From Natrononativus amylolyticus (GTDB taxonomy: Archaea > Halobacteriota > Halobacteria > Halobacteriales > Natrialbaceae), in contig NZ_CP101458.1 of the NCBI RefSeq assembly GCF_024362525.1, positions 1,922,001-1,986,000 on the forward strand: 64,000 bases of DNA, given 5' to 3'. Under the pieces are notes generated by a model. That model was not told the DNA's origin, ran no database searches, and saw nothing but the letters and a program-made list of their open reading frames with translations. Positions 2,607-5,345 of the stretch are shown here, in pieces. The first letter of the stretch is position 1; each line of letters opens with the position of its first letter. The position numbers and the translations under genes are program-made.

Positions 2607-3923
2607 ATGAGCGAGCAGCCTCGAGTCGAGATCTACACCAAAGACGCGTGTCCGTACTGCGAGAAGGCCAAGGACCTCTTCAACGCGAAGGGAGTCGAGT
2701 ACGAGACGTACAACGTGACCGGTGACGACGAGCTGTTCGAGGAGATGGTCGAGCGCGCCGGGGGCCGCCGGACCGCCCCCGAGGTGTTCATCGACGACGA
2801 ACTCGTCGGCGGCTGGGACGAGACTCACGCCCTCGAAGAGGCCGGAGAACTCGACGAGCGACTCGGGCTCGTTACCGACGGGGGCGGGGAGACCCAACAC
2901 TGGAACATGATCATCGCAGGAACCGGGATCGCCGGTCTTACGGCCGCGATTTACGCCGGCCGATCGAACAACGATCCGCTGGTCATCGAGGGCGACGAGC
3001 CCGGCGGCCAGCTGACGCTGACGACCGACGTCGCGAACTACCCCGGCTTCCCCGACGGGATCAGCGGCCCGGACCTCGTCAACAACATGAAAGCGCAGGC
3101 GACGCAGTTCGGCGCCGAGCTGAAAAACGGGATCGTCGAGCGCGTCGACGCCTCCTCGCGCCCGTTCCGTATCGAACTCACCAACGGCGACGTCTACACC
3201 GCCGACGCGGTCATCGCCGCCTCCGGCGCCAGCGCCCGCACCCTCGGTATTCCCGGCGAGGACGAACTCATGGGGTACGGGCTCTCGACGTGTGCGACCT
3301 GCGACGGCGCGTTCTTCCGCGGCGAGGACATGCTCGTCGTCGGCGGCGGCGACGCCGCCATGGAGGAGGCCACCTTCCTCACGAAGTTCGCCGACACCGT
3401 CTACCTGGCCCACCGCCGCGAGGAGTTCCGCGCGGAGGACTACTGGATCGACCGCGTCCACGAGAAGGTCGAGGAGGGCGAGATCGAGATCATGAAGAAC
3501 ACCGAACTGCTCGAGGTCCACGGCTCCCAGGAAGCGGGCGTCGACTACGTCACCCTCGTCGAGAACGACAAGGGGCACCCGACCGACCGCCTCGAGGACC
3601 CCGAGACGAACGAGTTCGAGTTCGACGTCGGCGCGGTCTTCCTCGCCATCGGCCACACCCCGAACACCGACTACCTCGAGGGAACCGGCGTCGAGATGGA
3701 CGACGAGGGCTATCTCCGCACCCAGGGTGGCGACGGCGGCGGCCAGACCGAGACCGACGTCCCCGGCATCTTCGGCGCCGGTGACGTCGTCGACTACCAC
3801 TACCAGCAGGCGGTCACCGCCGCGGGAATGGGCTCGAAGGCGGCGATCGACGCCGACGAGTACCTCGAGGACCTCGAGCGCGCGAACTCGAGCACCGAGG
3901 CCGAAGCGGCGGCCGACGACTGA
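2607..3923 (+). CDS. Glutaredoxin-thioredoxin reductase fusion
   Basis: A 438-residue flavoprotein with an N-terminal redox domain. Residues 1-90 are glutaredoxin-like with a CPYC active site at 15-18 and the usual TAPEVFIDDELVGG substrate-binding segment. Residues 100-425 are a thioredoxin reductase: FAD-binding GTGIAG at 105-110, redox-active CATC at 229-232, NAD(P)H-binding GGGDAA at 246-251, and a second FAD motif IFGAGDV near the C-terminus. By family knowledge the CATC pair takes electrons from NAD(P)H via FAD and reduces a partner disulfide; here the partner is probably the fused CPYC domain. Haloarchaea use gamma-glutamylcysteine rather than glutathione. The acidic tail after residue 420 is haloarchaeal. 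No thioredoxin gene is adjacent. Confidence 0.93.
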   Translation: MSEQPRVEIYTKDACPYCEKAKDLFNAKGVEYETYNVTGDDELFEEMVERAGGRRTAPEVFIDDELVGGWDETHALEEAGELDERLGLVTDGGGETQHWNMIIAGTGIAGLTAAIYAGRSNNDPLVIEGDEPGGQLTLTTDVANYPGFPDGISGPDLVNNMKAQATQFGAELKNGIVERVDASSRPFRIELTNGDVYTADAVIAASGASARTLGIPGEDELMGYGLSTCATCDGAFFRGEDMLVVGGGDAAMEEATFLTKFADTVYLAHRREEFRAEDYWIDRVHEKVEEGEIEIMKNTELLEVHGSQEAGVDYVTLVENDKGHPTDRLEDPETNEFEFDVGAVFLAIGHTPNTDYLEGTGVEMDDEGYLRTQGGDGGGQTETDVPGIFGAGDVVDYHYQQAVTAAGMGSKAAIDADEYLEDLERANSSTEAEAAADD

Positions 3924-3974: not shown

Positions 3975-4733
3975 TTATCTGTAGAACTTGAACTCCATCT
4001 CCGGCACGCCGTCGACGTACACCCGCTCGAGATCGAGCGACCAGCCGGGGCGGTAGTTGCGCTCGTCGAGCCCCTCGGTCCACTCGAGGCCGCCGTCGGT
4101 GTCGTAGCCGCTCGTGTCCTCGCCCTCTTTTGGCATGCTCATCGGCGAGTAGAAGTGCGTCGCACCGCCGCTGTTGTCCGCGACGGCGCAGGCGAGGATG
4201 TCGTCGGCGAGATCGATCATCTCGGCGGTCGGATCCTGTCCGATCGCATAGGCGTCCCAGACGTCGCGGACGCTGGTAACGCCCTGCTGTTCCATCCTGG
4301 TCGGCACCGTAAACCCGACGGCCGTCCGCGCCGGCGTGTCGCTGATCGACGCCTCGGACATGATGATCCGTGCGAGGTCGTCGACGTTCTGGCTGGTGTG
4401 GAACCGGTCCGTACAGTCGCCGCCAGAGGCGTCCTCGAGGTAGTTTCCGGAACACCAGACCCACTCGCCGTACGAGGAGAAGTGGATTCCCCACCAGGTG
4501 ATCCCGTCGGCGGTTTCGGGCCCGTTCATAATCTCGCCCTCGGTCCCCTCGGGATAGGCGCGCTTGACTTCGTAGTCGAGTCCTGGTCCTTCCCGACCGT
4601 TGAGGTCCGTCGTCGTCCGAACGGTGTCGCCGTCCTGAAACGACGCACTCGCCGGGAGCGACGCGCCGAGGACCGCGGTCGTTCCGATCGAGGCTCCTGC
4701 AGTTCGGATCAGCGTTCGTCGTGACCACTCCAT
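3975..4733 (-). CDS. Tat-exported SH3 plus SleB-like cell wall hydrolase domain protein
   Basis: The ATG at 4733 gives 252 residues; an upstream GTG at 4748 is possible but adds nothing to the signal peptide. Residues 1-31 are a Tat signal (SRRTLIR, then a hydrophobic core ending ASLPASA). Residues 35-105 resemble an SH3_3 domain (DLNGREGPGLDYEV and a closing WCSGNYL). Residues 118-200 resemble the SleB/CwlJ cell-wall hydrolase fold: ARIIMSEASISDTPARTAVG places an acidic residue (E127) where the family has its catalytic glutamate, and ATHFYSPMSMP resembles the substrate-groove loop. In bacteria this fold cleaves peptidoglycan, which archaea lack. The domain call rests on motif likeness; export is much more certain. 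Confidence 0.72.
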   Translation of the reverse strand: MEWSRRTLIRTAGASIGTTAVLGASLPASASFQDGDTVRTTTDLNGREGPGLDYEVKRAYPEGTEGEIMNGPETADGITWWGIHFSSYGEWVWCSGNYLEDASGGDCTDRFHTSQNVDDLARIIMSEASISDTPARTAVGFTVPTRMEQQGVTSVRDVWDAYAIGQDPTAEMIDLADDILACAVADNSGGATHFYSPMSMPKEGEDTSGYDTDGGLEWTEGLDERNYRPGWSLDLERVYVDGVPEMEFKFYR

Positions 4734-4791
4734 GACAGTCGAACGCACACAGGTGCGGTCGATACCGGTTGTGTTGGATTACTCATGAAAA

Positions 4792-4800
4792 GGTATATGC
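4792..4800 (-). promoter_or_regulatory. TATA-like element for the exported hydrolase gene
   Basis: The minus strand reads GCATATACC here, about 60 nt before the ATG at 4733, predicting a leader of about 35 nt. It is the only good TATA candidate in the short gap to the next gene. Confidence 0.4.
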
Positions 4801-4835: not shown

Positions 4836-5345
4836 CTACGACGACTCGAGACCGTACGCCGAGAGCGCGAACCCGACGTCGGCGACCGGCCGATCGACGT
4901 CGGCCGCGATCCGTCGGGCGTGTTCCAGCAGTCGACAGTACTCCCGCGGGCCGATGCGGTCGCGCGATTCGTGTACGCGACCGAGGCTGACCAGCCCCTC
5001 CCAGACGCTCGCGTCCGCGATCGCGTACCGCCCGGGATCGAGCCCCGTCAGGACACACGACGCCGTCGTCGTCTCGAATCCGGAGAGACCGGTCAACAGC
5101 GTCACGCGCGACAGGTCGTCGCCGAGCGAGGCGACGTTGGTCGTGACGGTCTCGCACTCGCGGTTCGTGTTCTCGAAGACGAGGTGGGCGTTTCGCGCGG
5201 ACACCTCGTAGGCCAACGCGTACAGCTGTCGACGGGTCAGGTGGCCCTGCGCTCGGTACTGTTCGCCACAGCGCTCGAGCGTCTCCGGGCAGATCCCGCC
5301 GTCTTCGCAGTACGTGCCCACGAGCGTATCGATTCGGTCGTCCAT
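4836..5345 (-). CDS. Helix-hairpin-helix (HhH) fold protein, DNA glycosylase-like
   Basis: The ATG at 5345 gives 169 residues; the TATA-like run at 5383-5395 lies too close to an upstream GTG at 5384 for that start to be used. The middle of the protein, LLTGLSGFETTTASCVLTGLDP followed in sequence by GRYAIADASVWEGL, has the shape of the HhH-GPD core of base-excision glycosylases, where a hairpin precedes a region ending in a conserved D-x-W/R-V-W element. The iron-sulfur cysteines of EndoIII-type enzymes are absent. Several archaeal proteins of this class are annotated only as hypothetical. DNA binding is likely; glycosylase activity is inference. Confidence 0.7.
   Translation of the reverse strand: MDDRIDTLVGTYCEDGGICPETLERCGEQYRAQGHLTRRQLYALAYEVSARNAHLVFENTNRECETVTTNVASLGDDLSRVTLLTGLSGFETTTASCVLTGLDPGRYAIADASVWEGLVSLGRVHESRDRIGPREYCRLLEHARRIAADVDRPVADVGFALSAYGLESS

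Follow-up and report, generated by a model that had tools for sequence, protein, structure and literature searches.

A predicted secreted, SH3-bearing SleB-like enzyme for peptidoglycan degradation in the haloarchaeon Natrononativus amylolyticus

The stretch of DNA analysed here (hereafter the window; 64,000 nucleotides of Natrononativus amylolyticus, positions 1,922,001 to 1,986,000 of NZ_CP101458.1) belongs to contig 1 in a genome of 3.99 Mb. At 3975..4733 on the minus strand, an ORF encodes a protein of 252 amino acids (plus stop), in which a Tat-type leader is followed by an SH3 domain and a SleB-like domain. These three parts, all named in an initial annotation of the sequence, are present, and they become visible via relatives, profiles and structure, Pfam, NCBIfam and PHROGs alone being insufficient. 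The only orthologue found (L005, from another genus of the same family) has 77% identity along its full length, and it begins at the same residue, which supports the ATG start codon at 4733. The gene is under purifying selection: between the two species, pN/pS is 0.35 for the entire gene, 0.27 for its catalytic part and 0.46 for its SH3 part, compared to 0.53 for the neighbouring gene. The full-length identity to a protein of another genus, together with the overall pN/pS, rules out a chance ORF. The GC content of the gene (65%) is near the window mean (67%), and its composition therefore gives no sign of recent transfer.

The gene upstream (4839-5333, minus strand) encodes a 165-aa protein of unknown family, which is 59% identical to its counterpart beside the orthologue in genome G104. 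This neighbour occurs in 15 of the 125 family genomes, mostly without a SleB-like gene; of the species examined, just the two compared here have it next to the SleB-like gene. In the spacer upstream of the SleB-like gene, a TATA-like block, CATATAnCTTTTCATG (approximately 4782..4800, minus strand), is kept in both species while the spacer has otherwise diverged, and the gene therefore probably has its own promoter. At 2607-3923 on the plus strand, the window encodes a glutaredoxin fused to a thioredoxin-reductase-like flavoprotein.

The leader comprises residues 1-32 (MEWSRRTLIRTAGASIGTTAVLGASLPASASF; 4638..4733, minus strand), where a twin-arginine motif (SRRTLIR) and a hydrophobic stretch can be read, along with a probable site for signal peptidase; the SH3 domain is preceded by ASAS. 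The twin Arg is kept in the orthologue, and Pfam TAT_signal gave no report for the 252-aa protein. We read Tat leaders on the amidase-bearing and M23-bearing relatives described below as well. Judged by its sequence, the protein is predicted to be exported, and the Tat leader would export it in the folded state. Because the leader has no lipobox Cys and no C-terminal anchor is visible in the protein sequence, the protein should be released from the cell.

Residues 31-102 (4428..4643, minus strand) form a bacterial-type SH3 domain. Pfam and NCBIfam see no domain in the whole protein, and on its own this member lies under the SH3_3 cut-off. An SH3 family profile built from 15 relatives (A5) matched the SH3b domains of an autolytic lysozyme and a GH24 muramidase in the PDB (E 2.7e-4 to 2e-3), and Pfam SH3_3 matched 11 of the 15 family members (E up to 1). 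A weak amidase match in PHROGs, falling in the SH3 part, was dismissed, and plasmid matches were set aside as weak (E 2 or more). Of the 125 genomes in the host's family, 35 contain a match to the 252-aa protein, nearly all via SH3, and the closest named organism bearing the SH3 family is Natronococcus pandeyae.

To judge by its fusion partners, this SH3 family belongs to wall-cutting enzymes. The census covered 39 SH3-bearing ORFs, which are the best-matching loci and so favour close relatives, and which include two with an identical protein sequence that may come from one genome (L001 and L007); 29 of them carry Amidase_2 (N-acetylmuramoyl-L-alanine amidase), five M23 and two SLT plus M23, two are the SleB-like protein and its orthologue, and one is a weak stand-alone domain, with the Pfam check made on four examples. 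Hence, SH3 is fused to Amidase_2, M23 or SLT plus M23 in 36 of the 37 other ORFs read. As the family is found elsewhere almost only on peptidoglycan-cutting domains, peptidoglycan is supported as the substrate of the SleB-like protein, and the SH3 domain would dock on bacterial wall material. In an SH3 tree (70 columns), the SH3 of the SleB-like protein groups within those of the amidases, in a clade with a support of 99/99. This placement and the variety of catalytic domains that bear the module suggest that it was probably swapped between them.

The C-terminal part, residues 107-252 (3978..4415, minus strand), was recognized as a SleB-like (Hydrolase_2-like) catalytic domain from phage relatives, a profile and the predicted fold. 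Pfam Hydrolase_2 (PF07486) has no match in the protein at E up to 1 and none in 293 genomes of the order, and NCBIfam also sees no domain in the protein; because the protein lies below the PF07486 HMM cut-off, we name the domain SleB-like and do not file it as a Hydrolase_2 member. Residues 101-252 matched ten of 50,697 phage records at E up to 10, all of them cell-wall hydrolases by name or Pfam, and the best matches were from Salinibacter ruber phages (E 1e-5). The protein of one of these, SRUTV-1, itself matches Pfam Hydrolase_2 (E 1e-10), and the likeness to it extends to the C-terminal end (RPGW...FKFYR vs RPAW...FRFYR). The catalytic domain was scored against a profile made from 52 viral SleB-type domains, a set collected in part through the TGGATHYY motif, which favours any protein bearing it. 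It obtained 28.9 bits, compared to 4.1 for the best of 200 shuffles and -0.9 for the reversed sequence. The hhalign probability of the match to viral SleB-type domains was 95.5-97.3%, and 95.5% with the two archaeal sequences alone. In the PDB, phmmer of the protein gave only chance matches, and a three-sequence profile of the archaeal SleB-like subfamily found no chain.

A profile search located the SleB-like domain in two of the 125 family genomes, belonging to two species; once chance matches were removed, the 316 genomes searched from two other families had none. None of the weak matches in other haloarchaeal genomes was accepted as a relative: L157 looks like a DHH-type protein and L158 like an enolase, and the matches in L052 and L057 are short and fall in unlikely frames. 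Since the catalytic domain is most closely related to phage lysins, the gene might be a viral remnant, encoding a lysin that does nothing for the archaeon. We consider this very improbable: viral contigs contain no relative of the whole protein, the chromosomal neighbours are ordinary cell genes, the gene is under purifying selection, and a conserved neighbour and the promoter-like block recur in the second species.

The likeness to SleB put forward in the initial annotation is borne out by the predicted structure. In the AlphaFold2 model, pLDDT is near 90 across most of residues 110-200, and the stretch 200-230 is less confident. In a viral structure library, the top match was the cell wall hydrolase of Salinibacter phage M31CR41-2 (E 2.3e-6), followed almost exclusively by SleB or cell wall hydrolases. 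Fold comparison with the PDB (VIA-align) placed SleB first, with Z 12.2 for 4fet (rmsd 2.4 A, 111 of 122 residues) and 11.8 for 4f55, the next row having 4.0; the matched chains are those of B. anthracis and B. cereus. The domain modelled alone gave Z 9.7 and 9.0 against SleB in the PDB, and in Foldseek against the PDB, SleB was not among the matches listed. Because the AlphaFold input alignment contained SleB-type viral proteins, the fold match is support and not independent proof.

The catalytic glutamate of SleB has a counterpart too. The predicted catalytic residue Glu127 (codon 4353..4355, minus strand) is a conserved position that lines up with the Glu of the family's GEA/GES, which in turn aligns with the Glu of the SleB GESRGE motif, so that E127 corresponds, as had been anticipated, to Glu157, the catalytic glutamate of B. 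cereus SleB (PMC11533991). This Glu is required for the lytic transglycosylase activity of SleB (PMC12331253). The most conserved motif of the family is GGATHFYS (residues 189-196; 4146..4169, minus strand). Of the aromatic residues at the SleB substrate site (F196, Y231, Y232, F233 and F257; PMC11533991), the counterparts of Y231-Y232-F233 are H193-F194-Y195, and that of F257 is F250. F196 probably has its equivalent in Y162, near which the alignment has gaps, and the archaeal pair carries about 22 extra residues inserted behind the GGATHFYSPMSM stretch. The SleB-like domain would cut the glycan strand through catalysis by E127, and a lytic transglycosylase is its most likely type.

Haloarchaea have no peptidoglycan, and the catalytic domain has strongly diverged from bacterial SleB, being about 25% identical to viral SleB-type domains and below Pfam detection. 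Both points would fit a SleB fold turned to an archaeal polymer, such as the cell's own S-layer glycan, an exopolysaccharide or the wall of other archaea. Such a substrate appears unlikely, given that the aromatic substrate-site residues seem to be kept (with the gaps near Y162) and that the SH3 module is common almost only to Amidase_2, M23 and SLT, whose target bonds co-occur in peptidoglycan. The evidence is most simply accounted for by a secreted modular peptidoglycan-degrading enzyme, and the peptidoglycan-hydrolase assignment of the initial annotation is supported by the SleB fold match, the presence of E127 and the partners of the SH3 family.

Compared to the SleB/CwlJ spore cortex-lytic enzymes (PF07486; 4f55, 4fet), the archaeal protein shares the predicted fold (Z about 12), the position of the catalytic Glu, the G-(G/N)-A plus aromatic motif and the C-terminal Phe. 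Different from them, it has only about 14% identity in the structural alignment, which is below Pfam detection, and it carries the insert and a Tat-type leader, with SH3 replacing the N-terminal helical domain of SleB. The closest relatives found are the cell wall hydrolases of Salinibacter ruber phages SRUTV-1, M31CR41-2 and M31CR41-3 (about 30-34% identity), whose similarity to the archaeal protein spans the region between the catalytic Glu and the C-terminal FRFYR/FKFYR; they lack the SH3, the Tat leader and the insert, and the lysin is annotated with a transmembrane region.

The same genome also encodes a Tat-Amidase_2-SH3 protein and a Tat-SH3-M23 protein, and the genome of the orthologue has the same three types. 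This co-occurrence in two genomes is suggestive, not statistical. With these two partners, bacterial walls would be broken at the glycan strand, at the amide link and in the peptide, and the three enzymes together would let the archaeon kill or digest bacteria. A possible, rather doubtful origin of the protein is the capture of a phage lytic domain, perhaps from a Salinibacter phage, which was joined to the SH3 of the archaeon's own amidase and is now used within an amidase/M23 kit cutting three kinds of peptidoglycan bond. Three further M23-domain proteins in the genome (L153, L154 and L155) have no SH3 module.

Together, our data make it likely that this haloarchaeal protein is a secreted peptidoglycan-degrading enzyme, exported by the Tat route, docked by SH3 and cutting glycan through E127, by which bacteria are killed or digested. 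Its class is best read as a secreted lytic transglycosylase or muramidase on bacterial peptidoglycan, serving as weapon or scavenger, and competing bacteria may be what it acts on. Gram-positive targets seem likelier than Salinibacter, because the outer membrane of the latter would keep an external enzyme away from its wall.

Archaeal peptidoglycan hydrolases that kill bacteria, mentioned in general terms by the initial annotation, are indeed on record, having been reported in 2025 from a Pfam-based screen; one of them, the Tat-exported M23 enzyme Woldo, kills a living halophilic bacterium (PMC12352652). Woldo and Danwoldo of Halogranum salarium are likewise haloarchaeal and combine binding and catalytic domains in a modular way, and Woldo has a Tat signal peptide (PMC12352652). 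Woldo differs in its M23 catalytic and PG_binding_1 domains, which are seen by Pfam, whereas the SleB-like protein is not (PMC12352652). That screen demanded both a catalytic and a wall-binding domain visible to Pfam, and its main text contains no mention of SleB (PMC12352652). The SleB-like protein fails this filter, as Pfam reports neither domain, though homology to both kinds is shown otherwise.

The enzyme might instead digest the wall debris of dead bacteria as food and leave live competitors unharmed, which is compatible with the proposed biochemistry. The anatomy would be the same as that of a weapon, three bond specificities in one genome suit complete digestion, and such a role was left open for other archaeal enzymes (PMC12352652). 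Against this stand the killing of living bacteria by the similar Woldo (PMC12352652) and the scattered occurrence in two of the 125 family genomes, a pattern like that of weapons; we hold scavenging to be a substantial possibility, somewhat short of probable.

The secreted peptidoglycan-degrading enzyme proposed here would add a SleB-like glycan-cutting type to the archaeal wall hydrolases, one missed by Pfam screens such as that of PMC12352652. In addition, our analysis points to a group of amidase, M23 and SLT enzymes tagged with this SH3, spread over up to 35 of the 125 genomes in a single haloarchaeal family; several of these enzymes likewise fall below the Pfam SH3 cut-off. If these enzymes are active, wall enzymes that serve archaea as weapons or for digestion are more frequent and more diverse than has been counted, and the three-enzyme kit lies within a single strain open to direct testing. 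The haloarchaeal Tat-Amidase_2-SH3, Tat-SH3-M23 and SLT-SH3-M23 proteins share with the SleB-like protein a homologous SH3 module and the type of export, and differ in their catalytic domains. The Tat-amidase-SH3 proteins are widespread in haloarchaea (L003, L006-L030 and L161), and with an SH3 often below the Pfam cut-off they could escape Pfam-based counts of wall hydrolases. Two haloarchaeal loci (L031 and L033) encode three-domain SLT-SH3-M23 proteins with Tat-type leaders, which combine two wall-cutting activities in each chain.
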